This document shows, piece after piece, positions 24,842 through 56,929 of a stretch of DNA of 64,000 nucleotides. Numbering within the stretch: position 1 is the first letter of the stretch; each line of letters opens with the position of its first letter. Source of the stretch: Halorussus rarus (GTDB taxonomy: Archaea > Halobacteriota > Halobacteria > Halobacteriales > Haladaptataceae); assembly GCF_003369835.1 (NCBI RefSeq), contig NZ_QPMJ01000002.1, positions 1,302,001 to 1,366,000 of the forward strand, written 5' to 3'. The notes beneath the pieces were generated by a model. The model was given only the letters and a program-made list of their open reading frames with translations. It searched no databases and was not told the DNA's origin. The position numbers and the translations under genes were made by a program.

Positions 24842-25585
24842 TCAGTCGTCGTCGGGCGCGGGTGCCTCGTCCGGCCAGACGACGCGCCTCTCCCATCCGA
24901 TCTTCGCGCCGTCATCGAGAGCACGGTACTCGTCAACCCGGTCAATCACTCGGCGCACAGTCCCTCGAGAGAGTCCGGTCTCTCGGGCGAGTCCACGCTT
25001 CGATGCCTCGCCGTCCGACTCTTCCCACCGATCGACGACTTCCATCACGGCGTCCCACTCATCGTTGTACGCGGGGACGAGGTACCTGCCGGCGGCATCG
25101 AACTCGGTTCCCGTCCACGGCCGTCCCTGATACTCGCCGCGGTCAATCCGCCGCTCGATCTCCTCGATGGCGTCCTCGATCTCCGCCTGCTTCTTCGCGT
25201 CGTCGGCGGCGGCCAGCATAGCCTCCTTGGCAGCGGCCCACGGATCGGAGATGTCGATGCGGTCGCGTTGGTGGCTGTGCAGCTCAACGCCGCGCCGCCG
25301 CATCGTGATCATCAAGTCCATCCGCTCGTCGAAGTCGCGCCCGAGGCGGGAGAGCGACTTGACGACAACCGCATCCACGTTACCGGCCCGAATCCGGTCG
25401 ATCAGCGACTGATAGGCCTCCCTGTCCGGATCGTAGCCACTCTCGTGTTCACCATCGTTGTGGATGGCCCGAAGTTCCAGATCGTCGTGTTCCCGGCAGT
25501 GGTCGGTGATAAGCCGTCCCTGAGTCGGGATGTTGTCCTCGGCGCCCGACTGAGAGAGACGCGTGTAGCCCTCTGCTCGCTTCAT
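24842..25585 (-). CDS. Serine recombinase/resolvase-family protein
   Basis: A 247-residue protein. Residues ~5-115 match a resolvase catalytic domain: GYTRLSQSG carries the nucleophile serine after the conserved arginine, NIPTQGRLITDHC is the Q-region, and VDAVVVKSLSRLGRDFDERM is the helix with the second arginine set. Residues ~185-215 look like a helix-turn-helix (SKRGLARETGLSRGTVRRVI). Its start overlaps the stop of the AbrB-like gene by 4 bases. It may be a resolvase of the mobile element or a DNA invertase; no crossover site was spotted. Confidence 0.8.
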   Translation of the reverse strand: MKRAEGYTRLSQSGAEDNIPTQGRLITDHCREHDDLELRAIHNDGEHESGYDPDREAYQSLIDRIRAGNVDAVVVKSLSRLGRDFDERMDLMITMRRRGVELHSHQRDRIDISDPWAAAKEAMLAAADDAKKQAEIEDAIEEIERRIDRGEYQGRPWTGTEFDAAGRYLVPAYNDEWDAVMEVVDRWEESDGEASKRGLARETGLSRGTVRRVIDRVDEYRALDDGAKIGWERRVVWPDEAPAPDDD

Positions 25586-29779: not shown

Positions 29780-32700
29780 GTGACAGTGAATGTTTCATAT
29801 GGATCGCTCATCTCGTTCTTTGAGCAGCAATCATCTGATACCAACTCCGACACGCCCACTACAGAAACGAACGGTCTGTGTCTTCTCGCGGGCGAAATCG
29901 TTGGTCGGAACCTTCGGAATGCCCTCGCTCGAAGGGGTATCAAGGCCGGGCGAACGACAAACATCACTACTATCGAGGACACCGCGGTTAGACTGCTAGA
30001 AGAACATCATCGAAACGAATCGGCTGATTGGCCTCAGGTTCGCCAATTAGACGGGAAAATATACGAACAATTCGTTCTTGACGCAATCACCGAAGCTGCA
30101 GACGACGATGGGTTGGATGTCGTAGAATCCTTCTTGGGTCGTATTAATTGGGAAGACAGAGATGACCTGTTGGAGACGCTTGTGGATGAGCTTGACCGCT
30201 ACTATCGATGCACAGATGCTGGCGATAACCACGAAGAAGTTACTCAGATAGCATCCAATCTCGGGGACGAATATGCCAAACAGCGTTCCAGTCGGGCATT
30301 GTCGGCCTTTGATCAACTCCATAACTATCTACAAAACAGAACAGAACCACTTCCCGACACGGAATACCTGTCAAGAAGCCATTTAGTCAAGGCCGCTCGT
30401 GAGCGAATGGCAGAAAACTGGTCATCAGCTTATCCCGACGTTGAGTGGGTCGCAGTTGCGACGATCAACGTTCTCGATAACCCAACTCTCCGATTTTTTG
30501 AAGAGCTGGCATCAATTGACGCCGGGCCAGAAGTTTATTTTTTCTTTAATGAAGACGGGTCTGGCGAAGACCTCAAAGACAGATTGGATAGCACCTCCGT
30601 AGATGTCTCTGAGACGGATCAATTCGATCGAGTACCACAGAGCCCAGTCTCGGAATTGATGGACACAGCAGCGGGATTACCACCAAGCCACATCGATGAT
30701 GTCGAATTCGTTGAGGCTCCGGACACTCGACGGGAGTTAGAACATATTGCGAGAAGGATTCGAGAGATTACCGGTCAGGGAGTGTCAGATGCAGATTCAC
30801 TCGTAGAGGACGCGTCCGAAACCGAACTAGGAGATATTATAATCGCGGCCAAGGACGTGATTCCCTACCGGTCGACGATTTCGGATGTATTCACCACCCA
30901 TTCGATACCGTTCCACGTCGAGGGGCGGCGGCCGATGATGCAAACGACTGCATATCGGTACCTCCAGTCCGTCTTTGAGTTACTAAACTCGGCGCATCAC
31001 GATGAGCCAGTAGATTACTGGGAGTTGATCGATCCACTTCGCCTTGGATTCTGTCCTCCAGAAGATTACTCTGAAATGTGGCCAGTCAGTGACGATGTCT
31101 TCCTTGAATTCGAACAACGCCTACACGAGGTGCAACGGGAGGCCGGGCGTCCGATGGGAGTCGAAGCGGGTGCAATGACACTTGAGGATTGGCGTGCTGA
31201 GATCGAAGCATTGTATGTGCGCAGTGATGCTGAGCAGTTATTCGATTTGATTGATTGGATCGACGACACCAGCAGCGGTTCTCCAGAGTCGGGAGATGCA
31301 ATTGCAACTCTTACCCGCGATCTCTTACAGGTACATCTATTCCACTTGACTTCGGGAGGCGTCCGAACTGCCTCTGGCCCGGGAGTCGATCCTTCTCGCA
31401 CCGCCATCAATATTAAACACGACTCACACGTTGCTCGCCGATTGTTGGACAACGCTGAGAGACTTCAGTCGTACTTTGATTATTGTGTAGAAACTGGTCT
31501 CGGCGACCCGGGCTGGGAACTAGCCCTTCAATCGTTCACCGACGTGTTTGGAGGGGAGTCCTTCTGGGAACGGAATGCCGACGGAAACGCTGTCCGAGTC
31601 ATCAACGCAGCGAACGCGTTCTTTGCTGAAGCAGATCATGTGTTTGTTATCGGTCTTGCCTCAGAAGAGTTCCCGTCAGAGCGGAGCCCGCCGAGCTTTC
31701 TCCACGATGAACTATATCAGGAGACTTGGCAGGTCGCTCAAGAGGCAGATCATTCTGAAAGCCCGCGGCCGTATCTCTACTTCCCATCTCCCGAAGACCA
31801 CTTCCAGCAGGATCTGGATGAGTACAAAGCAGCTGTAGAAACAAGCTCTGACCAAGTTTGGTTACTTCGCCAATTCAGAGATGCAGAAGGAGATGCAGTT
31901 CCTTGGTCATCATTTGTAGATGCTTTCACATCCCGTGATACCTTCGACGACATACATCACATCCAATTGAGCGACTGGCTCCCTTCGGGCAATCGCTACG
32001 GGAGTTGGCAAACCGCGACTCTGAATGCTACTACCCGCGACCGGTTGCGGATGTCGCTTTATCATCTACCAGACGGCTTGAACGCAGATACGTACACCCC
32101 CCGGCTTTCACCACACCCATTAGATAGTGAGCGGGGGCTGGTTGAACTACTTGCTCGGGTAGATGGTAGGGCCTTCGAGAACGAACTCGAACCACGCCGG
32201 AGTCGATACCTCGGTGACGACATCGGCCAGATCGAAGTCAACCCCGAGTCATCCGTCTTCAATCGCTACCTAAACCTTGAGGAGATCGTTGGCGGCCCAG
32301 TCCGACTTCATGAGCTTGATCTGTATGCTAAGTGTTCACTCAAGTACTATTTCTACCAGTATCTGTTTGCAGCGGGCGGAAGCACGATTGAGCGTGACGA
32401 GATTCCCGGAGATATGGATCCGTATTCGACCGAGGAGTACGGGCAGGTACCGACGATTCTCCGGGCCCATTACGCGAAGCGTGAACACCGAGAGGGTATG
32501 AGGCATCTCATCGAGTCCCCTGACCGCCTAGCCGATCGACAAGGCGCGTTAAGAGGATATAGTAGTGTGAGGGATCTTCGTGATGATCTTCGTGAGTGGA
32601 TAGCTGCCGATGACATCACGAGTTCGGTCATCCAGCCGGTACTTAGTGAGTATCTGGCTGTTTCTCAAGAGGACGACGCTGGTATCGAACGTTCTTGGGA

Positions 32701-33301
32701 GTGGGTAGACGAAGGTACTGTGGCCTTTGACGACACCGACGTAGTGATTCCGGGACACAGAGTCGATACCTTCCCAGAACGTGATTCATATCTCCCAGTC
32801 TGGTACACAGGTCAACCCAGCACCGCGAAAATTGCGACAAAACGTTGTTGGCACGGGTCTGGTGTCAGTTCACCGGATGACCGAGAGATATGCCGGAATT
32901 GTGGTGCAAGCGAGTACTGCGATTACGATGCAAAGTTCATTCTCGACCACAGGCTCAAGACGGCCAGATTCGCCACTTCGGATTTCGAGGGTGTAATGTT
33001 TCAAGAGCCGTATAGAACGGCCCCTTCGTCACGACAAGGTGTGGTAGTCGGCTTGGACAATACAATCCCCGAGGAAATACCACACGAAGCCAATCTCGAA
33101 CAGGTATCTGAGGGGGACTGGGACGATTGGGACAATTACTGGGAAACCGCAATTAGCACAAACACAAACCATATGACAGGCACGGACTCAGCAATCGAGT
33201 ATTCGGTATCCGATCGATTTGTGGCAGAGGGCGGCTGTGAAGGCTGTGCGTTCAGGGATCTCTGTCAAGTTCCCTTCCAACAAGAAAGAGGTGATAACTA
33301 A
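29780..33301 (+). CDS. AddB/RecC-like helicase-nuclease subunit, nuclease motif degenerate
   Basis: An 1173-residue protein with the layout of AddB: an SF1-helicase-like N-terminal half without an intact Walker A, a middle segment with VFVIGLASEEFPSERSPPSF (typical of AddB-type inactive helicase domains), and a C-terminal PD-(D/E)XK-like region. Fe-S-type cysteines are present: AKCSLKYYFYQYLF (~851) and C-x2-C-x5-C at ~1153-1162 (CEGCAFRDLC). The expected nuclease segment reads GHRVD then LPVWYTG, where D-x-K-T-G would be expected, so the active site looks lost. A further Cys cluster (about 1022-1047) is inserted there. It overlaps the AddA-like gene by one base. AT-rich composition indicates transfer. 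Confidence 0.75.
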   Translation: MTVNVSYGSLISFFEQQSSDTNSDTPTTETNGLCLLAGEIVGRNLRNALARRGIKAGRTTNITTIEDTAVRLLEEHHRNESADWPQVRQLDGKIYEQFVLDAITEAADDDGLDVVESFLGRINWEDRDDLLETLVDELDRYYRCTDAGDNHEEVTQIASNLGDEYAKQRSSRALSAFDQLHNYLQNRTEPLPDTEYLSRSHLVKAARERMAENWSSAYPDVEWVAVATINVLDNPTLRFFEELASIDAGPEVYFFFNEDGSGEDLKDRLDSTSVDVSETDQFDRVPQSPVSELMDTAAGLPPSHIDDVEFVEAPDTRRELEHIARRIREITGQGVSDADSLVEDASETELGDIIIAAKDVIPYRSTISDVFTTHSIPFHVEGRRPMMQTTAYRYLQSVFELLNSAHHDEPVDYWELIDPLRLGFCPPEDYSEMWPVSDDVFLEFEQRLHEVQREAGRPMGVEAGAMTLEDWRAEIEALYVRSDAEQLFDLIDWIDDTSSGSPESGDAIATLTRDLLQVHLFHLTSGGVRTASGPGVDPSRTAINIKHDSHVARRLLDNAERLQSYFDYCVETGLGDPGWELALQSFTDVFGGESFWERNADGNAVRVINAANAFFAEADHVFVIGLASEEFPSERSPPSFLHDELYQETWQVAQEADHSESPRPYLYFPSPEDHFQQDLDEYKAAVETSSDQVWLLRQFRDAEGDAVPWSSFVDAFTSRDTFDDIHHIQLSDWLPSGNRYGSWQTATLNATTRDRLRMSLYHLPDGLNADTYTPRLSPHPLDSERGLVELLARVDGRAFENELEPRRSRYLGDDIGQIEVNPESSVFNRYLNLEEIVGGPVRLHELDLYAKCSLKYYFYQYLFAAGGSTIERDEIPGDMDPYSTEEYGQVPTILRAHYAKREHREGMRHLIESPDRLADRQGALRGYSSVRDLRDDLREWIAADDITSSVIQPVLSEYLAVSQEDDAGIERSWEWVDEGTVAFDDTDVVIPGHRVDTFPERDSYLPVWYTGQPSTAKIATKRCWHGSGVSSPDDREICRNCGASEYCDYDAKFILDHRLKTARFATSDFEGVMFQEPYRTAPSSRQGVVVGLDNTIPEEIPHEANLEQVSEGDWDDWDNYWETAISTNTNHMTGTDSAIEYSVSDRFVAEGGCEGCAFRDLCQVPFQQERGDN

Positions 33302-36300
33302 TGAGTAGTGAAGAACAGGAGGTCTCCGCATACGCCGAGGAGATGGAACTTGAATTCGGGAATAGAGGAGAGCCACCGTTCCGCCCAACACCTGACCAAG
33401 GCGAAGTGATTAGGTCGTATTTCGAGGAGAGCGGACGCGTCGCGGTTGACGCCTCGGCAGGGACTGGAAAGACCACGACCCTCATCCTAACATTGGCAGA
33501 GATGGTTGTACGCGAGGCGTCCAGCGACTACAACCCGCTCGAGAATACGTTAGTAACTACGTTCACGAAGGATGCGACGAAAGAGTTGAAAACACGCCTC
33601 AAACGCATTCTGAGATTGCATGGAGACGTACCTCCTCACGTGTTCCGGTGGATAGAAACGGGGAGCCATATCCAGACGCTCGATTCGTTCTTCAAGGAGT
33701 TACTTCAGGAAATCTCGATCGATCTGAATATCCCACCAGACTTTGAACTTGACTCGGCGGTCGAACTTCAGCAGATACGAGAAGAAATATTTGAGGAACT
33801 TCGTCGAACCAATAGAGAAGAATTCGAAACTCTGAGTCAAGAGTTCCCGACGGAGGACTGGCGAGAGTACTCGCCAGACACCGTCGAGGAGATGATTCAA
33901 CAAGCACAACAAAAGTGCAGAGAATTTGGAATTTCACCAGATGAAGCAATCTCACAGCTACGGGCAAGCCTCGATGTAAGCCACGGCGTAGCACATCCTG
34001 ATTGGCCCGATGATGGAGATAGTTTAGCTCCATTAACCAACGGGCCCGATACCGCTCCCCCGGATGATATTGACGATGTTGAGCAGTTGCTACAAGCTGT
34101 CGTGAACCCGGGTGCGGAGCTTCGGTTTGATTCTCGACTGAATGACGACGAGAGAGAGCAAAGACAGCAGATGCTCCTTGAACATGTCCGAGACACATAC
34201 TTTCGAACAGAGGAAGCTATCGAAGCGTTTGGCACCCTTCTAAATGAGTTCGAACAACGATACGACGAACGAACCCGTGGCGAGGGTCAATTCTCGTTCC
34301 AAGATATTTCTCATCTGTTACGCAATCACATACAATCGCAAGGCGAGGACGATCCCTTCGTACAGAGTCTGGGGAGTAGGTTTGACCATGTTTTCGTCGA
34401 TGAATTCCAAGATACGAGCATAGTCCAGTGCGAGATTATCCGGCATCTCGTCGACTCAGGGTGCGATGAAAGCATCTTGACTGGTGAAAGTGAAGACGAC
34501 CCTGATGAGACCGGGGACGACAATATATTGATGATCGGGGACGTGAAACAATCGATTTACGAATGGCGTTCAGCCGATCCCGCCCTATTCGCAGACATAA
34601 TCCAAGCAACGCGAGATGCCCGTCCCGGAACGGCAGTGGTACCACACCTCTTTATTAGGAATGTCCGCTATCACGCCTTGACTTCCGTCTTCCGCCACCA
34701 TCCTGACATCGCTTATGCTGCGAATCACGTCTTCCAAGACGTACTAGAAGATGATGGAAGAGGTGCAATAGGTGGGATCCAGCCGAACTATGTGCCGATT
34801 CAACCACGGGGTGACGGACTGGAGTGGGACGACGAAACGGCTCATATTCATGTATTAGATATTGATGCGGCCTCCAACGACAATCACCGGAGTTGGGTTC
34901 GTACTGACAATTGGGCACGGGACGAATCCCGACGGGTTGCTGAAACCATCGCCGCGATGGTTGACGAAGAGAACGCGGATGACCCTCCTATACAGGTTCA
35001 ACGAGGTGTCGATGAGGATGGTGAACCGATTCTCGATCAGCCTGTTCCGGGAGACATCACACTCCTATTCCGGTCGAAACGGAAGATGCAGGACTTCGCC
35101 GATGTTTTGAGAGACAATTACGGAATCGACGCCGCACCAATCGCTACGGACGACCTCTTCGAACAACCAGAGATCAAACTTCTGACTGACATCCTTTATT
35201 GGTTTGCTAACCCACATAATAGTGGAGCTCTCCTTCGGATACTTAGATCACCTCTGGTTGCAGTTTCTGATGGGACACTCCGAGCATTAGCTTTCGAGGA
35301 TTACTATATCGGAGACCTATTGGATTCGTGGCCGGACGAGCTTCCCTTAGATGATAAGGAACGACTCGAACACCTCGTCACCCTTAGAGACGATCTCCGG
35401 TGGGATCGAGAGAACTCCAAAACAGATCTTGTCAACCGAATCTTGCAGCACTCTGGTTTCGATTCGGTCGTGCTTGCGGATACTGATGCACTTCGGAGAT
35501 ACGGGAACCTTTGGTTATTCTCGGAGCTAATCGACGACTGGGAGGAAGACGAACTTCTTCCATACCGTGACTTCGTCGACCGGCTAGTCACGCTGCGTGA
35601 CCGTGCTGACAGCTCGAACCCGCAATTCGAGGTAGCAGAAATTGCAGATCAGGATAATGATAGTGCGGTCACTCTCACGACGGTTCATAAAGCGAAGGGC
35701 CGGGAATTCCCCATCGTCTTCCTTTGCGATCTTGTCAAGCAGTCTCGTTTCCCACCAGAGCAACACGACCGGCTGCTGACGAGTCGACGCTATGGAATGG
35801 CACTCCGCCCCCGACCTAGTGATCTCCCATTCCCTGACGGTGTCCATTTCCCAACTCCGGAAGATGATTTGGGCTCTTCGACGTGGTTTAACGATGACTT
35901 TGACGTAGACAGTTTCCCTACGGCTACAGGCCCGACTTGGGTTTCATATGACCGAGATGCGACATCTGGACAATTCAGCTATTCCAACCCACTCAACAAT
36001 CACCTTGCAGAAAGTGAAGCAGAGTTCTGGCGAATGGCATACGTTGGGTTCACGCGAGCAGAAGATCATATCTTCTTCGGGCTATCCGACTTGGACGAGT
36101 CTTCAGACTACTACGACGAAGTGCAATGGTCGATGTGGTTAGCAGCATTGAACGATACACTCCAGCCCTTTGGTGGCTGGTCGAACGTGTCGCAGCGTGA
36201 TCGGTCAGATAGAGTCATCGATCGCGATCTCAGGTGGGAGACAGATCAAGGAGACCCAGTTACGGAGACTATCCGAATCGGGGTCGACGAAGTAGAACCT

Positions 36301-37176
36301 AGCTCAGAGCGAACACTCGATGAAATCGACGCATCGGGCCTCGACTTTCACCTCGAGACCGATGGGATGCCGGTCGAACACCCCGAATACAGACCACTCA
36401 CACTGGCAGCATCCTCACTCTTCGACCTGATCGAGTGCCCAAGGGCTTACCAGTATCAGCACGCACAAGAGATTGAACCAGTTCGTGGAAACGGTGCTGA
36501 ATCCACAAGCACCCCCGGTGATCGACTTCCAGATGAATGGGGAGAGAGTGTCCATCGAAGCATAGAACTTCGATTACAGGATGAAGCCCTGTTCAATAGT
36601 TATGCCAGAGGAAACGAGGATATTGAAGACCTGCTGAGACACGTAGTCCTCGATAATCTCACGGACACAGATGCCTTCTCAGCTGCCGATAGAGCGACTG
36701 AAGATGACGTGTTCACCGAGATCTCGGTATCTACACTTTATGAAATCTCAGGGAGAGAGATCCGAGTTAACGGCGATATAGATTTACTCTACCGAAAAGA
36801 TGGGGATTGGCACTTAGCTGACTGGAAAACCGGAGGACATTACGAAGATGGTGACTACCAACATCGCAAGTACATTCACCAGTTGTCCGTTTACGCGTGG
36901 TTACTCAGGCGTGAGTTCGGGATTGAGATGTCGAGTGCAACTCTCGTCTATATCGATGTGAATGGCAGTCCGGTTGTGAAGGAACAAGAAGTGACCAGTG
37001 ACTTGGTGACTGGTACACTCAACCGCGTCATCGAAGAAGACGTACTGGGATTAGATGTTCAGGACTCTGATGGCTTAGAAGCCAATCCGGGAACTGATAG
37101 ATGTGGGGCCTGTCCATACGGAGCGAACAAGGGTGGGCCTTGTTTAGACGACGCTCTATTCGACGCTGGTGACTAA
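33301..37176 (+). CDS. AddA-like UvrD/Rep helicase with C-terminal nuclease
   Basis: A 1291-residue SF1 helicase. Walker A ASAGTGKTTTL is at ~51-61, Walker B VFVDEFQDT at ~364, motif III GDVKQSIYEWR at ~412, VTLTTVHKAKGREFP at ~790 and VGFTRAEDH at ~914. The C-terminal PD-(D/E)XK nuclease is intact: WGESVHRSIEL, then VNGDIDLLYR (~1155) and ADWKTG (~1173). Cysteines in IECPRAYQYQ (~1046) and CGACPY...C (~1268-1281) fit an Fe-S nuclease of the Cas4/AddB type. It should resect or degrade DNA ends with its AddB-like partner. The role could be defence or recombination of the element. Confidence 0.85.
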   Translation: MSSEEQEVSAYAEEMELEFGNRGEPPFRPTPDQGEVIRSYFEESGRVAVDASAGTGKTTTLILTLAEMVVREASSDYNPLENTLVTTFTKDATKELKTRLKRILRLHGDVPPHVFRWIETGSHIQTLDSFFKELLQEISIDLNIPPDFELDSAVELQQIREEIFEELRRTNREEFETLSQEFPTEDWREYSPDTVEEMIQQAQQKCREFGISPDEAISQLRASLDVSHGVAHPDWPDDGDSLAPLTNGPDTAPPDDIDDVEQLLQAVVNPGAELRFDSRLNDDEREQRQQMLLEHVRDTYFRTEEAIEAFGTLLNEFEQRYDERTRGEGQFSFQDISHLLRNHIQSQGEDDPFVQSLGSRFDHVFVDEFQDTSIVQCEIIRHLVDSGCDESILTGESEDDPDETGDDNILMIGDVKQSIYEWRSADPALFADIIQATRDARPGTAVVPHLFIRNVRYHALTSVFRHHPDIAYAANHVFQDVLEDDGRGAIGGIQPNYVPIQPRGDGLEWDDETAHIHVLDIDAASNDNHRSWVRTDNWARDESRRVAETIAAMVDEENADDPPIQVQRGVDEDGEPILDQPVPGDITLLFRSKRKMQDFADVLRDNYGIDAAPIATDDLFEQPEIKLLTDILYWFANPHNSGALLRILRSPLVAVSDGTLRALAFEDYYIGDLLDSWPDELPLDDKERLEHLVTLRDDLRWDRENSKTDLVNRILQHSGFDSVVLADTDALRRYGNLWLFSELIDDWEEDELLPYRDFVDRLVTLRDRADSSNPQFEVAEIADQDNDSAVTLTTVHKAKGREFPIVFLCDLVKQSRFPPEQHDRLLTSRRYGMALRPRPSDLPFPDGVHFPTPEDDLGSSTWFNDDFDVDSFPTATGPTWVSYDRDATSGQFSYSNPLNNHLAESEAEFWRMAYVGFTRAEDHIFFGLSDLDESSDYYDEVQWSMWLAALNDTLQPFGGWSNVSQRDRSDRVIDRDLRWETDQGDPVTETIRIGVDEVEPSSERTLDEIDASGLDFHLETDGMPVEHPEYRPLTLAASSLFDLIECPRAYQYQHAQEIEPVRGNGAESTSTPGDRLPDEWGESVHRSIELRLQDEALFNSYARGNEDIEDLLRHVVLDNLTDTDAFSAADRATEDDVFTEISVSTLYEISGREIRVNGDIDLLYRKDGDWHLADWKTGGHYEDGDYQHRKYIHQLSVYAWLLRREFGIEMSSATLVYIDVNGSPVVKEQEVTSDLVTGTLNRVIEEDVLGLDVQDSDGLEANPGTDRCGACPYGANKGGPCLDDALFDAGD

Positions 37177-37356: not shown

Positions 37357-37794
37357 ATGGCCTACTGGAAGTTCACCTGCACGTGGGACACCGAACGGGA
37401 GTGCATGATCCGTCGCCTGTTCGGCAACCACCAACGAGAGACCGACGAGGGTGAACCCCTTGACGTGGAGCAGAACGATACCCTGTTCCTTCACCGAATG
37501 ATGACCAAGCAAAGCGACAGACACGGATACCTTCTCGGCCCCTTTGTCGCCACCTCCGACGCCAAAGAGAACATCAATCCTGACGCGTGGAACCACCTCG
37601 GCAGTATCGACTGGCAAGTTGAGATTGACTGGGTAGAACCCGTCTACAGCCTCAACTTAGATGACTGGACGGATGACGATGGAGAGTCCACGATGGATGT
37701 CACTCAGTACGCACAGAAGTTCAACGAGGTGCAGGGCATCTTCTTCGAAGGACGGTTGAGGAACGAAGGCAACCTCATCATCAACTACCCCTGA
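37357..37794 (+). CDS. EVE/PUA-superfamily-like protein, putative modified-base reader
   Basis: A 145-residue protein. MAYWKFTCTWDTERECMIRR, then VEQNDTLFLHRM, YLLGPFVATSDAKENI and an aromatic-rich WQVEIDWVEPVYSL match the strand order and aromatic cage style of EVE/DCD domains in the PUA superfamily. EVE domains are linked to recognition of modified bases, and they recur in restriction systems. The stop overlaps the ATG of the TBP gene by one base, so translation is coupled. The assignment is by pattern only. Confidence 0.5.
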   Translation: MAYWKFTCTWDTERECMIRRLFGNHQRETDEGEPLDVEQNDTLFLHRMMTKQSDRHGYLLGPFVATSDAKENINPDAWNHLGSIDWQVEIDWVEPVYSLNLDDWTDDDGESTMDVTQYAQKFNEVQGIFFEGRLRNEGNLIINYP

Positions 37795-38336
37795 TGCCAG
37801 AGATAGTGAACGTCGTCGCAGCGGGGAAGCTCGGCCGGGAGATGGACATTCCCGCTATCACCGAGGACATCGACGCCGCCGTCGTCAAACTCTCCGACGA
37901 GAGCTACTCCCACCGAGTCGTCTACCTGCGGCGCGATGAAGGCGGCCCGATGGCGACGCTGTTCCGATCCGGTAGCTACCACATCACAGGTGCCGACAGC
38001 ACCGAAGGGGCGGAGGAATTGAAGGACTGGATGGTGGCCGCACTCGAAGACCTCGGCATCGAAGTCACAGCTACGTTCGCCATCAAGAACGTCGTTCTCA
38101 CCGGCGACTTAGAGGAGCAGGTTAACTTGAACACGCTCGTTACCGCACTCGGACTCGAGAAGACCGAGTATGAACCGGAACAGTTCCCGGGTGTCGTCTA
38201 CCGTCCGCCGGACATCGACTGTGTGTTTCTCATTTTTGGAAGCGGAAAGGTGGTGATCACCGGTTCGCCGGACGTGGAGACCGCCGTCGAGGGGTTCCAG
38301 AAGGTGACGGAGCGGCTAAAACAGACCGTCGGTTGA
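37794..38336 (+). CDS. tbp: Mobile-element-encoded TATA-box-binding protein
   Basis: A 180-residue TBP, the normal archaeal length, with two saddle repeats. Repeat 2 is canonical: YEPEQFPGVVYRPP and FLIFGSGKVVITG, including both DNA-intercalating phenylalanines. Repeat 1 begins EIVNVVAAGKLGREMD but has SYSHRVVYLRR where the F-P-G motif is expected, then ATLFRSGSYHITGA. DNA binding may therefore be altered on one half-site. In archaea TBP recruits TFB and RNA polymerase. A divergent TBP on an island could redirect transcription to island promoters. It is coupled to the EVE-like gene and runs into the convergent gene at 38,316. Confidence 0.92.
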   Translation: MPEIVNVVAAGKLGREMDIPAITEDIDAAVVKLSDESYSHRVVYLRRDEGGPMATLFRSGSYHITGADSTEGAEELKDWMVAALEDLGIEVTATFAIKNVVLTGDLEEQVNLNTLVTALGLEKTEYEPEQFPGVVYRPPDIDCVFLIFGSGKVVITGSPDVETAVEGFQKVTERLKQTVG

Positions 38337-38747
38337 CTCGGCGGACTTGAACTCGGCCAGTGTCGTGTAGTTGAACGGCGGGAACACGACACGGTTCTCG
38401 TACGGGATTGGGTCTTCTATCTCGTACACTGAGTTCTCCTCGAAGAATAACACCTTCTTCCCCGAGTCGTAGCCCTCGTACTCCTCCACTGGCCGGGCGA
38501 GATTGGCCTCATCGGCTTCAACAATCTCCCGCACCTTTCCAATGTACTTCACCTGCCTCACGTCCTCGCTGATGTAGATTGCCACGTAGTCCGGTTCTCG
38601 GTTCATCCGGACGAACCCCCAAGCGTTGTTCTCTCGGATGAAATCCACACCCTCCTTGCGCGAGGGTGCAACGGCGACGAGGTCGTCGTCATCCCCCTCG
38701 ACTTCGGAGCGGGCAATCGTCCCAGCAAACTCGGTGTCTGCGCTCAT
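38316..38747 (-). CDS. Hypothetical restriction-associated PUA-like protein
   Basis: A 143-residue protein. APSRKEGVDFIRENNAWGFV, then DYVAIYISEDVRQVKYIGKV and KKVLFFEENSVYEI give a beta-rich pattern like small PUA/EVE-style modules found beside restriction genes. Its 3' end overlaps the end of the TBP gene by 21 bases (convergent). The divergent neighbour is the XamI-like endonuclease at 38,855. Function inferred only from context. Confidence 0.5.
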   Translation of the reverse strand: MSADTEFAGTIARSEVEGDDDDLVAVAPSRKEGVDFIRENNAWGFVRMNREPDYVAIYISEDVRQVKYIGKVREIVEADEANLARPVEEYEGYDSGKKVLFFEENSVYEIEDPIPYENRVVFPPFNYTTLAEFKSAESTDGLF

Positions 38748-38854
38748 ACTTTACTGATAAACATGTCCACTCTTGATGTTTGTGTCTCGCCGCGGTGGCA
38801 TCAGTATGTTTTACAGTAGGGACTGAGAAGCGGGCAAAAAGGGGAACCGATGGG

Positions 38855-39757
38855 ATGAGTACATCAGACAAGTCGATGGAAGAGCTAGCCGAGGAAAGCC
38901 GTAAACAAGAGAAGGAGCGGTATGTGAAGAAGTGCGCCACGTTCCAACGGGAGATATTCCGAACCACCGAGGTGAAATTCCGAGAGTTAGCCGAGACCTC
39001 GGACAACTTCAGGAACGTCAACGTCGACTTCGTCCGGGAGAACCCCCTCACCGTCCGCATTCTCCGTTACCTCACCGAGCCGATTCTGAGCCGCGACAAG
39101 TTTAGCGAGTACTGCGACGTCGGCGATCAGACCCTCGGAAAGTACGAGGATTACGAGGACGACACCACGCCGCGGGCGGAGACCGCCGAGAAGATCATCG
39201 ACACGTTCGAGGACTACCGGAACGAGAGCTTGCTGCCGTGGCTGGAGATCGGCGAACTGGAATATCACGAGTACGACGAGGACGCACTTATCAAGAAGCT
39301 CCAGACCTCCATCGCCTACAACGTGGCCACTTCCGAGGCGAACACTGAGTACCGGAACTGGCGGGCGACAAAACAGCACGATTACATCGCGGACGAACTG
39401 GTAGAGGCCGGATTCGAGAAGGTGGAAGCAAGCGACGTGACCGAATTGGAACCGGGGCAGTACGAGACCGAGTTGAACGTCTCTAACGAGGAAGCCGACT
39501 TCGCCATCAAGAACCACGGTGGGGAACTCATCCTGACCGAGGCGAAGATGAGCGGCACCGAGATCAACTTCCGCAAGCGGCGGAAAGAGATGATCAACGA
39601 CTACACCGAATGGACGGACGACAGACCGGACGCTCGCATCGTGGGCGTCATCGGCGGCGTGATCAACACCGACGACGTGGAGCTACTCCAAGAAGCCGGT
39701 ATCACGGTGTTCTGGGATCACGAGCTTGACGGCCTATCCGACTTCGTCTCTGACTAA
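38855..39757 (+). CDS. XamI-like type II restriction endonuclease, first copy
   Basis: A 300-residue protein. The N-terminal half is helical with FRNVNVDFVRENPLTVRILR and YLTEPILSRDKFSEYC. The C-terminal half has a PD-(D/E)XK core: EEADFAIKNHGG (D ~213) then LILTEAKMSG (E-x-K ~227). Length and arrangement fit the XamI family, whose type member cuts GTCGAC. The ATG at 38,855 is chosen because homology with the second copy (42,062) begins close to it. It converges with the methylase gene, one base apart. Confidence 0.75.
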   Translation: MSTSDKSMEELAEESRKQEKERYVKKCATFQREIFRTTEVKFRELAETSDNFRNVNVDFVRENPLTVRILRYLTEPILSRDKFSEYCDVGDQTLGKYEDYEDDTTPRAETAEKIIDTFEDYRNESLLPWLEIGELEYHEYDEDALIKKLQTSIAYNVATSEANTEYRNWRATKQHDYIADELVEAGFEKVEASDVTELEPGQYETELNVSNEEADFAIKNHGGELILTEAKMSGTEINFRKRRKEMINDYTEWTDDRPDARIVGVIGGVINTDDVELLQEAGITVFWDHELDGLSDFVSD

Positions 39758-39758
39758 A

Positions 39759-41906
39759 TCACACGTCGAGAACGTCATCGAGCGCGTCGCTCAACTCGCC
39801 GAGCACCTCGTCCTCGTCACCGTTCCGACTCGCCTCGCACAGATCATCAAACAACTCGGCCAACTCCTCCACGACTTCTCGGTCAAGCTCGCGAGGATCG
39901 ATGACCGGAACACCCTCCAGTTCGTTCGGTTCCACTTTGTCCATACCCGTGCTGTACGTCCTCCCGTGCCGCTTCACGATCTCGTCAGCGAAGGGGCTGT
40001 TCAGGTAGGCGAGGAGAGCCTTGGTCTCCGTCTCATCCAGTTCGACGTCGAGATAGACACAGTGCAGGTTCGTCAGGTTCCGGGCACCGGTCTTGTTCTG
40101 GACGAATCTGCCACGTGACCGACTCATGTACGTGTAAAGGATAGGAGCAGGATCGCGGCGGTCAAACACGTACCACGGTTCGCGGTTACTGGCGAGATAC
40201 CCCTCGTGAACCTCCAACTCCTCCATACCGTACTTCAGATACTCCACGACACCCGGCCTTTCCCCACCGCCACCACCACCCGTCGAGAAGTCGCTGATGC
40301 GGGTGTTCTGCCCATCCTCTTCTTCGGTACCGTCAGGGTGAATCTCCGGCACCCACTCAAGATCGTCAAGGTGGTAGGGGATCCACACCTCCCTACCCTC
40401 GTCACGCTGCTGCTCCCAGTCCTCTTCCCGATAGTCGAAGTGAGGAACGGCCCGGGCGTTGCGGATGAGCGGAGACAGCCACCGATCCTCGATGTCCCAC
40501 TCGTACCCACCCGACGAACTGGAGAGTTCCTCCTCGCTCAAGCAGAAGTAGTCGTTCTTTCCCGTGGCGATGCCACGGTTGACCTCGCCGATCTCCGAGA
40601 ACGGGACGAGTTGCTCGTCCTCGCCGATGTCGAGCGGGTCGAGGAGATCATCCCACTTGTCATCGGGTTCCAGCGCAGACTGCCTGACCGTATTGACGAA
40701 TCCCCACTCGGTCTCGCCTTCGGTGCCGTCCTCGATGGCGTCCAACACAACATCCTGACCCGGCCAGTCGTCCACGCGCACGAATTTCGTCAGTTCCTCG
40801 TCGTCCTCCTCGTCCTCGGTCTTCCGCTCGAGGAAACTGATGAATGACGTGGTAAGCGCCTCGTCAAACTGCGAGTCGGCTTCCCTGTCGTACAGGACGA
40901 ATCCGCGGATGTGGTAGTTGTCCAGCAGAAACGCCTTCAAGTCCTCTCCGTACTTCGTCTCGAGGAACTCGGAGGGTGTGATGAACGTCGAACGGCCGTC
41001 GTCGGTGAGGAATTGCGTGGCGTGGATGTAGAAGTAGGCGTAGAGCGGCGAAAGTGTCGAAATCGAACGCCCCGCCACATCCTCCATCTGACTGTTCATC
41101 TCTGCCTTCACGTCCTCATCGAACTCGTGATGGCGAGTATAGGGCGGATTCGAGATGACCGCGTCCACCTCTCCGACGTCTTCCGGCTGGAGATCGAGGA
41201 AGTTTCGCGTTTGGAGATTCGGCCGGCCACCACCATTCGAGAGCCGAAGCGAGACGTCCGCCATCAAGACGGAGAGCGGACTCAAGTCCACACCACTCAT
41301 CTCGCCAAGAGTATTCTCACCACTACGCGACTTCTTGACTTCATACGCACTCGTCGAGAGTGCGGCTGCACCGATGCCCGGATCGAGAACGATGTCGTCA
41401 GCATCCCGAACCACCCACTCCGCCATCAAGTCAGCGATGACTGGCGGTGTGCGGAACTGGCCGAGTTTGTGCCTGTCCTTCCGCGGCACGAGCGACTCAT
41501 GGACGTGGCCGATAGCCTCGGCGGGATCGTCTTCCGAAGCGAACCGCTCCCCGGCCTCAATGAGCCGTTCGAGATCGTCCTCGCCGAACAACTGTGCAGC
41601 GTCGGCGAGGAAGTACGTTGAGAAGGACTCGTCTCCGGTCACCTCTTCAGCCTCACCGACGGCATCGTGGAACGACGTAGCATCCAGCTCTGAGAGTCCC
41701 TCCTTAGAACGGTAGGACTTGTAGAGCGTTGCGGCGAGGGCGACATGGAACGCCGCCTGTCGTGCGACGATGGCTTCAGACGAGTCTGTCCGCCCCAGTC
41801 CATGACTCTCAACCCACTCTTCGAACCCGTCCACGTCGCTGATGTCCGACTCGATGGACTGGGCCGCGTCCGTCACGATTTCTTCGACTGTTCCGGCACT
41901 ACTCAT
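39759..41906 (-). CDS. N6-adenine DNA methyltransferase (Eco57I/XamI-associated type)
   Basis: A 715-residue methylase. A helical N-terminal part is followed by SAM motif I VLDPGIGAAALS near residue 172 and catalytic motif IV VISNPPYTRHH near 252, the N-P-P-Y of N6-adenine enzymes of the gamma type. A target-recognition region fills the C-terminal half (GGGGGERPGVVEYLKYGMEE and SRGRFVQNKTGARNLTN). It should modify the site cut by the flanking endonucleases. It starts with the ATG complement at 41,906; the shared upstream region with the second endonuclease is 155 bases. Confidence 0.88.
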   Translation of the reverse strand: MSSAGTVEEIVTDAAQSIESDISDVDGFEEWVESHGLGRTDSSEAIVARQAAFHVALAATLYKSYRSKEGLSELDATSFHDAVGEAEEVTGDESFSTYFLADAAQLFGEDDLERLIEAGERFASEDDPAEAIGHVHESLVPRKDRHKLGQFRTPPVIADLMAEWVVRDADDIVLDPGIGAAALSTSAYEVKKSRSGENTLGEMSGVDLSPLSVLMADVSLRLSNGGGRPNLQTRNFLDLQPEDVGEVDAVISNPPYTRHHEFDEDVKAEMNSQMEDVAGRSISTLSPLYAYFYIHATQFLTDDGRSTFITPSEFLETKYGEDLKAFLLDNYHIRGFVLYDREADSQFDEALTTSFISFLERKTEDEEDDEELTKFVRVDDWPGQDVVLDAIEDGTEGETEWGFVNTVRQSALEPDDKWDDLLDPLDIGEDEQLVPFSEIGEVNRGIATGKNDYFCLSEEELSSSSGGYEWDIEDRWLSPLIRNARAVPHFDYREEDWEQQRDEGREVWIPYHLDDLEWVPEIHPDGTEEEDGQNTRISDFSTGGGGGGERPGVVEYLKYGMEELEVHEGYLASNREPWYVFDRRDPAPILYTYMSRSRGRFVQNKTGARNLTNLHCVYLDVELDETETKALLAYLNSPFADEIVKRHGRTYSTGMDKVEPNELEGVPVIDPRELDREVVEELAELFDDLCEASRNGDEDEVLGELSDALDDVLDV

Positions 41907-42061
41907 TCAATCACTCCCGTTGCGGGCGTCAGACCGTAGATGCTCACGTTGCTCTGATGTTCTGACTCTCCCTGTATGTATCTACCTGACTCCATCATCC
42001 GGCGCCGACGTCGTCACTCCTCTCATAAAAAGCTATCAACGGGGCATGTATCTGGTTCGTT

Positions 42062-42964
42062 ATGCAGCTCTCTAGCAACGAATCTGTAGACGACGTGGCC
42101 AAGGAAAGCCAACGATTTGAAGAAGAACTCTTCCTCGACGCGATCCGTGACTTCTACGAACAAGAGTTCGAGGAACACCGTGAACTCTTCGACTACGCGG
42201 CCGAGCACACCAACAACTTCCGTGATTTCGGCTCGTCCGTCATCCGCAACAACCCGAACGTGGTAAAGGTACTCCGCTACCTCGTCAAGCCACCAATTTC
42301 CCAGATGAAGTTCGGCCAGTTCGCTGGCATCAACAGTACTGACTCCTACGAAAAAGACAGCCCGACGACGCCACAGCACGACACGGCAGAGCAGATGGCT
42401 GACTTCGTGGAAAGCAACCTCGACGAGCGGAAGGTGCCGTGGCTGCACGAGAACGTTGATGAGGAACTGGAACTGGAACAGTCCCGTGAATGGGTGTGCG
42501 ACATCATCGCCCAGTCCGAGGCCAAAACACGCTACCGGAACTGGCGCAAAGACGTGCAAGAGGAGAAGGTAGCCGAGACCATGATGGAGGCCGGATTGGA
42601 GAAAGTAAGTCGCAGTTCGACACTTGAGTCCAAGGACGACATCCCCTGCGGCTCGTTCGTCCCCGAAACCAAGGTGAACGTCACCGGTGGAGACCACCAG
42701 AAAGCAGACATCGTAGCCCGCGACAAGGACGGAGAACTCGTATTCATTGAAGCGAAGGCCATCGGAGTAAAAATCGACTCCTACAAGCGGATCAAAGAAA
42801 TTCGCAACAAGGAATCCGACTGGCGCCGCACCTACCCCGACGCTGATGTGGCAGCCGCCCTCTCTGGCTGGATTCCCGAAAGTCAGCTCGAGACCCTCAT
42901 CAACGACGACATCACCATCTTCTGGGAACACCGGCTGGAAACCCTACACGACTACTTCGCCTGA
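42062..42964 (+). CDS. XamI-like type II restriction endonuclease, second copy
   Basis: A 300-residue paralogue of the protein at 38,855, with the same length and matching blocks: FRDFGSSVIRNNPNVVKVLR, YLVKPPISQMKFGQFAG, the EAKTRYRNWRKD segment, and the core QKADIVARDKDG (D ~215) with VFIEAKAIGV (E-x-K ~229). The catalytic residues look intact. It is divergent from the methylase. Overall similarity to the first copy is moderate, so the duplication is old or the two were acquired separately. Confidence 0.75.
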   Translation: MQLSSNESVDDVAKESQRFEEELFLDAIRDFYEQEFEEHRELFDYAAEHTNNFRDFGSSVIRNNPNVVKVLRYLVKPPISQMKFGQFAGINSTDSYEKDSPTTPQHDTAEQMADFVESNLDERKVPWLHENVDEELELEQSREWVCDIIAQSEAKTRYRNWRKDVQEEKVAETMMEAGLEKVSRSSTLESKDDIPCGSFVPETKVNVTGGDHQKADIVARDKDGELVFIEAKAIGVKIDSYKRIKEIRNKESDWRRTYPDADVAAALSGWIPESQLETLINDDITIFWEHRLETLHDYFA

Positions 42965-43009
42965 CCCCGTCTCCAGAAACCTCATGGTTCACTATTGGAA
43001 TGGGAAAGC

Positions 43010-43840
43010 ATGGACATCGGAAAAATCCCCCGCGGCGAAGACTTCGCCCATAAATTCGCACGTGGAGAATGGGCCGAAACAGTCCTCCTAGAAACTATTG
43101 AACGACAGGACGGTGTCTTCGCCTTCCAGTACGGCGTCTCCCGCGGCGACGCTCTCGACACCAAGGACGAACTAGACCAAGTGAAGGAACCCGGCGTTGA
43201 GGAGATGAAACGACCGGATGTCCTCGTGTTCGAGGAGGAACGGCTGAATGACCTCGATGAGAACACACAGGGGCTAATCCATGATTACATCTCAGCAGAC
43301 CCGGACGGGATGGCGGAGATCCTCCCCCTACTCGAACAGGCTGACGCACCGTCGGCCGCCACGATGGCTCTCGAGGCCGAGTCAAGCAAATTTCACATCG
43401 GCGAGCGGAGCTACAACAGCTCGCTTTCCGCCTACGTGAAGGACGAGGACTACCCTCGCCTCCAGTCGTGGCGAGACCAGCACGAGGTACCCATCTTCGT
43501 CTGCCAACTCTTCTTCGACAGAGGCTACATCATTCCGTTCGCCGCCTACGAGGAGTACGCGGAGGGCGCCCGGAACGGCTCCACATCCGTTCCCGGATTT
43601 GAACACGACACCATCCCCGTGATCTGGAAGGACGGACTGCAGGCGAAGGTAGAGAACTTCCCCTACTCGGAGCTGCTTGGCACGTTCACCGAAGACCCGT
43701 CCGTCGTCCGACACACCAACAACGACATCGAGGAAACCGACTTCGACTGGTCACGCTCCGGCCAGCTGGACGCCGTTGACTCGGCGTTCTTCAGTGGCGG
43801 AACGCTCTCGCTCGAAAACCCGTTCACCGACTATCTGTGA
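43010..43840 (+). CDS. AccI-like type II restriction endonuclease
   Basis: A 276-residue protein. ARGEWAETVLLETIERQDG then FAFQYGVSRGDALDTKDEL and VEEMKRPDVLVFE (~67) followed by MALEAESSKFH (~121) match the order of the AccI family. The acidic motif is E-x-E, as in BamHI, rather than E-x-K. AccI recognises GTMKAC, a set that includes the XamI site GTCGAC. It follows the second XamI-like gene by 45 bases and overlaps the next small gene by 4, so the three are one unit. The family call is moderate. Confidence 0.6.
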   Translation: MDIGKIPRGEDFAHKFARGEWAETVLLETIERQDGVFAFQYGVSRGDALDTKDELDQVKEPGVEEMKRPDVLVFEEERLNDLDENTQGLIHDYISADPDGMAEILPLLEQADAPSAATMALEAESSKFHIGERSYNSSLSAYVKDEDYPRLQSWRDQHEVPIFVCQLFFDRGYIIPFAAYEEYAEGARNGSTSVPGFEHDTIPVIWKDGLQAKVENFPYSELLGTFTEDPSVVRHTNNDIEETDFDWSRSGQLDAVDSAFFSGGTLSLENPFTDYL

Positions 43841-44091
43841 CCGAAGACATTCCCCAGCCCGCTACCGAGCCCTACTCCGAGGGCGATCGGGTGAAGGTCT
43901 ACCTCGCTAAAGACGACACAGACTCTGCCCTCCACGGTACAACGGGAGTAGTCGACGAAACACTCCGCGACTCCCTTGGCGAGGAAACAGGGCGTAGCAC
44001 CGATTCGGTAAGCTATCGGATCGAAACCGACGAGGGCGTACTCAACACGTGGTTTCGTCACCACGACTTGGTTCCTGCAACTGAGGAATAG
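43837..44091 (+). CDS. Small KOW/SH3-like protein, 84 aa
   Basis: Starts at a GTG overlapping the endonuclease stop by 4 bases. EPYSEGDRVKVYLAKDDTDS then LHGTTGVVDET and VSYRIETDEGVLNTWFRHHD have the strand-turn order of an SH3-like barrel, similar in style to the protein at 21,948. It may be a DNA-binding or accessory subunit of the restriction unit. Function inferred from coupling only. Confidence 0.6.
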   Translation: MTEDIPQPATEPYSEGDRVKVYLAKDDTDSALHGTTGVVDETLRDSLGEETGRSTDSVSYRIETDEGVLNTWFRHHDLVPATEE

Positions 44092-55510: not shown

Positions 55511-56686
55511 TCATTTCTCAATCTCGACTGCCGGACACGCTGGAAGATGCTCAGAGTATCCTCGAATAGTCTCTCCACACCAATCACACGTCTTTCGTTG
55601 CTCAACCGTCGCTTCCTTAGTGAGGTGTTGGCGACAGTGAATGCAGTTTTGTTTCTCGCGTGGCGTTTTCTGGTGACATCGAGGACACTCAATAGGTGCA
55701 GTTGGGTCTGGTTCTTCATCTGCATCAACGTCAATTCCGTGGATCCTAGCAACTTCCCGATCGGTGTCTTCGGCGAACACCGAGACATATCGCGAGGCGA
55801 CGTCGCTCCCACGCGTCCACCCGTGGTGATCTTCGATGTGAGCCTGATTCATCCCTCGGGAAGCCAGATGAGACGCGCTTGATTTTCGGAAGTTCGTAAA
55901 TGTGACTGGTTTATTGATGTCTGCACGTTCGGCTGCGTCCTTGATCGCCGTCCGAAGGGCGTTGTAAGTCGGTGCCGTCGGTTCCTCCAACTTGCTCCAC
56001 AGCGGATCATCGAGTGCATCACCGGGGTGGGCCTCCAGCCACCGCTGTAGGAACGGAACGCTTGGAACTAACCCGACCGACCGCTGTCCCATTTTCCCAC
56101 GTACCGTTACCTGATAGCCGTGTTCGTAATCTGTGACGTCTCCAAGCGTGAGACTTCGAAGCTCTCCTGAGCGAGGGCCAGCATCCCATGCAACAGCGAC
56201 CAAAGCCGCATCACGTGGATTTCGTGTTTCCTCGATCAGAGGGAGGACATCGTCTTCCCATTTCAGCATATCACTGGGCTCAGGTGCCGGATCATACGTA
56301 CTGGGAGTATTTGACGGAATCCACTCCATGGTCTCCGGTGGAGAATCGCCATTTACCTCTGTAGCTCGCCGGCCGAATTGCTTCAAAGCTACTCGGTAAT
56401 CGCGATTTGTCTCTGGATTATCGTAGGTTCGATGAATCCACCGAACGATCTCCTTCACTTCTTCTTCATCCTCCAAAGCATCGACCAGACTCCCAGCGTG
56501 CTCTGCCATTCGGACATTGTGACGAAGAAGTTTGAGGTGCCGATGATCGCCTACTTGACTCGGGATGAGCATCAGCTCGTCACTAAATTTCAGTAATGCA
56601 TCTCGATTCGCTTCGTCTACATCCCGGCGACCGTTCTGTATCTTATTGCGGAGGGTCTCCAATTGTTGGCTAACGTCCTGCGTCAT
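55511..56686 (-). CDS. Tyrosine recombinase/integrase with two zinc ribbons (second integrase)
   Basis: A 391-residue integrase. The SAM-like N-terminal domain covers about 1-130. Catalytic residues are DAGPRSGELRSL (Arg), TFTNFRKSSASHL (Arg, with Asn where His is common) and SRYVSVF (Tyr). C-terminal zinc ribbons are CPRCHQKTPREKQNCIHC and CDWCGETIRGYSEHLPACP. The start is the ATG at 56,686, with the AT-rich ccagttataga (about 56,700-56,710) upstream as promoter; the frame is open further but has no conserved content. It points leftward, opposite to the first integrase. Confidence 0.88.
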   Translation of the reverse strand: MTQDVSQQLETLRNKIQNGRRDVDEANRDALLKFSDELMLIPSQVGDHRHLKLLRHNVRMAEHAGSLVDALEDEEEVKEIVRWIHRTYDNPETNRDYRVALKQFGRRATEVNGDSPPETMEWIPSNTPSTYDPAPEPSDMLKWEDDVLPLIEETRNPRDAALVAVAWDAGPRSGELRSLTLGDVTDYEHGYQVTVRGKMGQRSVGLVPSVPFLQRWLEAHPGDALDDPLWSKLEEPTAPTYNALRTAIKDAAERADINKPVTFTNFRKSSASHLASRGMNQAHIEDHHGWTRGSDVASRYVSVFAEDTDREVARIHGIDVDADEEPDPTAPIECPRCHQKTPREKQNCIHCRQHLTKEATVEQRKTCDWCGETIRGYSEHLPACPAVEIEK

Positions 56687-56929
56687 ATCGGATTTTAGCC
56701 CAGTTATAGAATGCTGGTTAGCGGGTTTTCTATTTTCGCTGTCTTGGAGGATACTTCGAGGGGTTTGGGACTTGGATGATCCTGATGGATTGACTTCTGC
56801 GGGCACACGCACCGTGGCTGGCACCGGGGCCGGGCACTCAACTCCGCCCCACCTGAAGAAGGTGCGGAAGGGGTACTTGGGGCCTACTTCATCGTCGAAC
56901 TGGACGAGGATGGTCTGAAGGTCGAGTGC

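Follow-up and report, generated by a model that had tools for sequence, protein, structure and literature searches.

Variant TBP genes beside N6-adenine-methylation defence genes in haloarchaea: a predicted restriction-modification cassette of Halorussus rarus and its relatives

Introduction

Why haloarchaea keep many TBP genes, and what purpose is served by the TbpC-type copies, whose DNA-binding face looks broken, are old questions, to which a small gene pair of Halorussus rarus leads. The TbpC class was defined by the loss of the N-terminal Phe pair in a study that left open whether its members are functional and did not mention restriction (Becker et al. 2014, PMC4230888), and deletion of tbpC in Halobacterium NRC-1 had no apparent phenotype (PMC2121645). 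In the window considered here (the whole stretch of DNA that was analysed, 64,000 nucleotides), a divergent TBP gene directly follows a gene for a putative reader of modified bases, a pair which, according to the original prediction, would be a new regulatory arrangement within a defence-like island. The answer that we offer is that TbpC-type TBPs belong to mobile defence systems. If true, a core initiation factor has been recruited as a system-specific regulator, which would explain why it is dispensable in the laboratory.

Results and discussion

The gene pair opens a conserved eight-gene cassette

The DCD-TBP pair stands at the start of a cassette of eight genes (37357-44091):

P1, 37357..37794, plus strand: 145 aa, DCD domain (EVE-like, PUA superfamily), predicted modified-base reader (PF10539, 1.8e-6)
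P2, 37794..38336, plus strand: 180 aa, variant TBP with Y, F, F, F at the intercalating positions (PF00352, signature, tree, dN/dS)
P3, 38316..38747, minus strand: 143 aa, PUA-superfamily protein (ASCH-like), convergent with P2, the 3' ends overlapping by 21 bp
P4, 38855..39757, plus strand: XamI-like restriction endonuclease, ATG at 38855, longest ORF from 38780 (PF09572, 2e-13)
P5, 39759..41906, minus strand: N6-adenine DNA methyltransferase (Eco57I type), 715 aa (PF07669, 3.6e-18; PF02384, 3.9e-14; PADLOC MTase_II, 1.5e-52)
P6, 42062..42964, plus strand: second XamI-like endonuclease, ~35% identical to P4 (PF09572, 1.6e-15)
P7, 42995..43840, plus strand: AccI-like endonuclease family, weak match (PF09545, 7.4e-6)
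P8, 43837..44091, plus strand: small conserved protein, 84 aa, overlapping P7 by 4 bp

The order (DCD, TBP, convergent 143-aa gene, XamI-like, convergent N6-adenine methylase, second XamI-like, AccI-like, 84-aa protein) and the orientation of these genes are the same in the source genome and in two others (G311 and G179; 30-kb stretches compared), which together represent three haloarchaeal families and have unrelated flanks. Identity between orthologues at the three loci ranges from 54 to 91%; the orthologues of P4 are 86% and 77% identical, those of P7 in G311 and G179 76-80%, and those of P8, for which the family scan returned no match, 54-60%, in the same place in the cassette. Every gene tested is under purifying selection, and since orthologues 71-91% identical display dN/dS values of ~0.06-0.22, P1 and P2 are not chance ORFs. 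No relatives of P4 were found in the viral contigs searched. The paralogous XamI-like genes P4 and P6 are both retained at all three loci, perhaps as a heterodimer or for two specificities.

Judged from the methyltransferase and endonuclease genes conserved together at the three loci, the cassette is a predicted restriction-modification system, which upholds the defence setting originally proposed, now with a methyltransferase and XamI-like and AccI-like endonucleases as its named components. The EVE-TBP pair, which had been put forward as the arrangement in itself, is real, but it only opens a cassette of eight genes.

For P3, a profile search of the PDB gave no significant match, and fold comparison was needed: its AlphaFold model (pLDDT 86) has ZmASCH as the top Foldseek match (E 2.8e-4, TM about 0.5). 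In 49 of 391 haloarchaeal genomes, a similar ASCH-fold domain forms the C-terminal part of proteins of ~390 aa (L017-L046); two such proteins, borne on plasmids, carry the annotation HsdR N-terminal domain protein. Some genes with P3-like domains directly adjoin variant TBPs (G312, G270).

The first gene encodes a predicted modified-base reader

Bell, Wolf and Koonin (2020, PMC7641849) place DCD, the domain assigned to P1, within the PUA superfamily as an EVE-like domain. The match is marginal, with 28.2 bits against a curated cut-off of 27.8 for PF10539 and the G179 orthologue falling under that cut-off, and the Pfam scan of P1 gave DCD and one weak unrelated match only, with no match to the EVE profile. 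Since a sequence search of the PDB likewise returned no significant match, fold comparison was required; the AlphaFold model (pLDDT 84, pTM 0.82) resembles VcaM4I, an EVE-HNH nuclease, and EVE-fold proteins of archaea (E 2.5e-4 to 7e-4, TM 0.56-0.63), followed by YTH domains. The claim that the first gene encodes an EVE/PUA-type protein, for which structure prediction had been named as a check, is thus borne out by both profile and fold.

In G140, G129, and G173, McrB-like proteins carry a domain homologous to P1 on the N-terminal side of their AAA domain; in two of these three genomes the gene that follows, to judge from its place and size, is probably McrC-like. On the basis of its fold and of these fusions, P1 is predicted to read a modified base. 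Most probably, this DCD protein takes part in restriction. DCD and EVE domains are known from defence systems, in which they are fused to McrB and to nucleases and associated with type I restriction (PMC7641849); unlike in those systems, the DCD gene stands alone here, and its pairing with a TBP is not described there.

The P1 and P2 genes are joined by TGATG, stop and start overlapping by one base at 37794, so that the overlap behind the translational coupling noticed at the outset is confirmed. A class-wide search of Halobacteria for P1 orthologues beyond the source genome identified them in 2 of 390 genomes, both of other families, and the DCD-TBP pair is accordingly present in 3 of 391, the source included; the pair had been expected to recur elsewhere if meaningful, and it does. 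In G179, the two genes are set apart by ~470 bp containing a 110-aa ORF, indicating that the coupling is not strict. The DCD-TBP link may be merely operonic, and a putative partnership of the two proteins, or binding to modified promoters, would be suggested by no more than their adjacency. Relatives of P1 were absent from both the viral contigs and the plasmids searched, and a profile search of genome contigs with the P1 alignment returned one locus (Halorubrum sp. JWXQ-INN 858), taken as G311:C13, and nothing further. The P1 of the source is an outlier (71-75%) relative to those of G311 and G179, whereas its P2 is 91% identical to that of G179, which points to recombination inside the cassette near the P1/P2 joint.

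P2 is a two-repeat TBP with an altered first repeat

P2 matches PF00352 in two stretches (E 6e-34; 116 bits against a cut-off of 22.9), and its best match in the PDB is the TBP of M. jannaschii (2z8u, E 2e-33). The only other TBP of the source genome keeps all four intercalating phenylalanines. Repeat 1 of P2 reads DESYSHRVVYLRR...TLFRSGS, compared with DYDPEQFPGLVYRT...LIFRSGK in that ordinary TBP, and repeat 2 reads YEPEQFPGVVYR...LIFGSGK. The alignment and the family match agree with the initial description of a divergent TBP with a normal second and an altered first repeat, with one correction: only the first intercalating Phe of repeat 1 is changed, to Tyr, and the second remains Phe, so that P2 does not carry all four. 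The loop YEPEQFPG is present in repeat 2 of P2; in solved TBP structures, the loop EYEPEQFPG makes the contact with TFB/TFIIB. It is chiefly the conservation of this loop in the altered TBPs that speaks for a function in transcription initiation rather than a mere DNA-binding relic; the dN/dS of P2 (~0.1) indicates purifying selection, and hence P2 is not a relic.

Altered TBPs resemble the ordinary TBP less in repeat 1 (mean identity 32%) than in repeat 2 (51%), and each position of the loop is kept in at least 74 of 77 of them. The change in repeat 1 is specific: most often both Phe are replaced by Tyr, rather than by any residue, and at least 53 rows are YYFF, with Tyr at both repeat-1 and Phe at both repeat-2 intercalating positions. 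The YFFF pattern of P2 is shared by its three nearest relatives, and all four fall inside a group of nine rows (SH-aLRT 99), which also holds TBPs coupled to single-protein methylase/IIG enzymes. Like the TbpC class, most altered TBPs have lost the N-terminal intercalating Phe pair, keep the C-terminal pair, and are mobile and patchy in distribution; unlike that class, P2 retains the second repeat-1 Phe. With one of its two N-terminal Phe lost, P2 is placed by the tree with the YYFF rows, in a set of 68, with weak support (87).

Variant TBPs adjoin N6-adenine methylation systems across haloarchaea

The TBPs of 391 Halobacteria were ranked by similarity to P2, and the 20-kb neighbourhoods of the best ~60 and of 20 lower-ranking controls were compared. 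The TBPs were picked from their own sequences, with neighbours ignored, giving a sample of ~95; genes in unannotated genomes were called by a simple script that favours acidic proteins. Controls L137-L139 were left out (no TBP call), and the nominal control L146, which has an altered TBP, was counted as altered. Restriction or methylase genes lie within two genes of 72 of the 77 altered TBPs and of none of the 16 ordinary TBPs (FFFF). When only Pfam-checked families are considered, 64 of 77 are linked, the other eight having been recognized by an NPPY-type motif; the corresponding p-values, 5e-14 and 2e-10, are overstated, since the loci include related ones, which do not count as independent observations. 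The linkage label requires 5 changes on the tree, against 20.0 expected, and 0 of 500 shuffles came so low.

The partners of the altered TBPs are diverse and comprise HsdM-HsdS-HsdR operons, the XamI-type cassette of P1-P8, a ~1400-aa DrmMI-like methylase with a ~988-aa SNF2 helicase resembling BrxHII/DrmD, and Eco57I-type methylase/IIG proteins of ~981 and ~1200 aa. All methylases beside altered TBPs that were identified by Pfam or PADLOC belong to N6-adenine families. Twenty-nine altered TBPs and their large partner genes share a strand and are at most 10 nt apart, mostly with 4-bp overlaps. The EVE/DCD protein does not hold up as a general partner of altered TBPs, which usually accompany N6-adenine methyltransferase systems (type I, type IIG, the DrmMI/SNF2-helicase pair, or BREX).

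Annotated plasmid records (n = 11), which were read separately, give the same picture: all 9 altered TBPs, including that of Halobacterium salinarum R1 pHS4, adjoin methylase, restriction, or BREX genes, and both FFFF TBPs are without such neighbours. BREX-linked altered TBPs were identified in Haloarcula halophila, Halorarius halobius, and Halanaeroarchaeum sulfurireducens, and TBPs annotated as TbpC in Halobacterium sp. DL1 and Halorarius were found beside defence genes. Collectively, the altered TBPs, Halobacterium TbpC-type genes included, appear from these neighbourhoods to be a set built into DNA N6-adenine-methylation defence systems. The TBP is not obligatory, being absent from 7 of 15 HsdM loci (43 genomes), present within ~10 kb of the other 8, and absent also from some XamI-methylase cores.

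In the open-access literature, we found no report linking TBP or TbpC to restriction, methyltransferase, DISARM, or BREX in haloarchaea. A repeat 1 with Tyr-Tyr or another alteration, next to an intact repeat 2, could serve as a sequence signature when archaeal genomes are searched for restriction, BREX, and related systems, uncharacterised ones included.

Several further arrangements were encountered. Named haloarchaeal plasmids carry TBP genes inside or adjoining BREX and BREX-5 loci (L206, L207, and L211). Some systems contain two different variant TBPs (L127, L163, L115, L128, and L160), as where a pair flanks an HsdM-HsdS-HsdR operon or brackets a helicase gene. An IMG/VR viral contig (L203:5902-8322) encodes a TBP without both repeat-1 aromatics, followed by a methyltransferase-like protein with an SPPY motif.

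Promoter elements and other candidate regulators

No element common to the cassette promoters was found among exact 7-8-mers or among 9-10-mers with one mismatch; in all three species, the two divergent intergenic regions contain conserved blocks. In another group of loci, a near-invariant palindrome, TAGTCT-AAGTAA-AGACTA, then TAT, precedes by 33 nt a 63-aa AbrB-like gene, which heads the DrmMI-like/SNF2-helicase/TBP operon (L108, L110, L115, L117, L119, L120, L124, L125, L128, L155, L160, and L169), and is likely the operator or promoter of the DrmMI-type defence system. The palindrome TAGTCTAAGTAAAGACTATAT of these operons was dropped as a candidate TBP site, because it tracks the AbrB-like gene and not the TBP clade; always preceding that gene, even where the TBP is of a different clade, it is more likely the operator of the AbrB-like protein. 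Where methylase-XamI cores have no attached TBP (including G076 and G172; L130, L131, and L129), a gene for a 74-82-aa protein (74-78 aa in G076 and G172) adjoins the methylase. This protein, judged by eye, may be ribbon-helix-helix-like, as if one regulator had replaced another, which lends weak support to the view of the TBP as a regulator of its cassette.

Proposed role and alternatives

We propose, with a probability of roughly 0.55, that P2 is the cassette's own transcription initiation factor and a member of the TBP set built into N6-adenine-methylation defence. Its ordinary repeat 2 and TFB-contact loop would enable P2 to recruit TFB and RNA polymerase, and the altered repeat 1 would change the mode or place of its DNA binding, presumably conferring promoter selectivity. 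P2 could then drive or time the transcription of the defence genes once the cassette enters a new host, as C proteins do in bacterial restriction-modification, while the DCD and ASCH-like proteins would act as the modified-base readers of the system, with no need for contact with the TBP. A dedicated initiation factor is favoured because purifying selection is combined with an intact TFB-contact loop. Against it stand the failure to find a common promoter element in the cassette, the palindrome of the DrmMI operons, which goes with an AbrB-like gene and not with a TBP clade, the lack of a TBP in some related systems, and the tbpC deletion in NRC-1, although the lack of a phenotype in the laboratory is what would be expected of a regulator of a defence system.

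Controller (C) proteins of type II restriction-modification systems are small, cassette-encoded helix-turn-helix regulators with a proposed timing role. By analogy, P2 would likewise be a small regulator encoded within a restriction-modification cassette, with a similar role in timing; unlike C proteins, it is of the general transcription factor type and not a helix-turn-helix protein. We know of no earlier case in which a general transcription factor takes the place of a restriction-modification controller.

TBP domains have also been described within conflict systems, namely TOTE and TALON (PMC12458937, after Aravind et al. 2022). These systems are bacterial and have TPR-CSD proteins and other effectors; the cassette resembles them in containing a TBP and differs in that this is a full archaeal-type two-repeat protein. 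Membership in TOTE was rejected, as no TPR or OB/CSD family was found in the cassette proteins scanned.

A rather unlikely alternative casts the variant TBP not as a transcription factor but as a structural or recognition subunit that bends DNA within the defence complex, helping the methylase or nuclease to engage or distort it. Translational coupling to a methylase or helicase gene is typical of subunits, and TOTE systems contain TBP domains (PMC12458937); yet it is the TFB-contact loop that is best conserved while repeat 1 diverges, and the partner machines (type I, IIG, helicase pair, BREX, XamI) are unrelated, making one common binding surface unlikely.

Less probably still, the TBP might be a methylation sensor: by reading whether TATA-like sites in its own promoters carry N6-methyl groups, it would adjust the expression of methylase or nuclease. 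The uniform N6-adenine type of the neighbouring methylases, the A-rich target of TBP, the specific Phe-to-Tyr change at the intercalating positions, and the coupling to a DCD reader in the P1-P8 cassette are all consistent with sensing. However, N6-adenine methylases dominate such system types anyway, and the DCD coupling is confined to three loci. A combined scenario, in which a general transcription factor has turned into a dedicated mobile defence regulator and its sensing of promoter N6-methylation gives self-methylation feedback on expression, is in our estimate distinctly improbable.

It is very improbable that the variant TBP serves as a decoy or back-up that sustains transcription of the defence genes, or of the host, while the ordinary TBP is blocked by a virus. 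An altered repeat-1 surface could evade an inhibitor, and an altered TBP does lie beside a methylase-like gene on the viral contig mentioned above, but we know of no virus-encoded TBP inhibitor in haloarchaea, which counts against a decoy, and this reading would not explain why the tight linkage is restricted to methylase systems. Finally, hitch-hiking, a chance meeting on plasmids and islands where TBP copies and restriction genes both abound, is hardly credible: many loci do lie on such elements and GC dips at the source locus, but chance co-residence is rejected because ordinary TBPs, some of them plasmid-borne, are unlinked in both samples, and it fits poorly with so many altered copies being closely apposed to a same-strand partner.

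Surroundings of the cassette

Upstream of P1, outside the conserved cassette, the window contains a further gene pair:

29780..37176, plus strand: 1173-aa ORF, then a UvrD/PD-(D/E)XK helicase-nuclease (PF00580 and PF12705 on the second ORF)

The pair, which is probably AddAB-like, is missing upstream of P1 in G311 and G179. A similar PD-(D/E)XK/UvrD pair adjoins a variant TBP in Halorientalis marina (L205), and a homologue of the UvrD ORF adjoins the TBP operon of G249 (L117), so that the pair, or its UvrD member, recurs in unrelated cassettes. The surrounding low-GC island, of ~40 kb, carries genes for a serine resolvase (24845-25585) and a tyrosine integrase (55514-56824).
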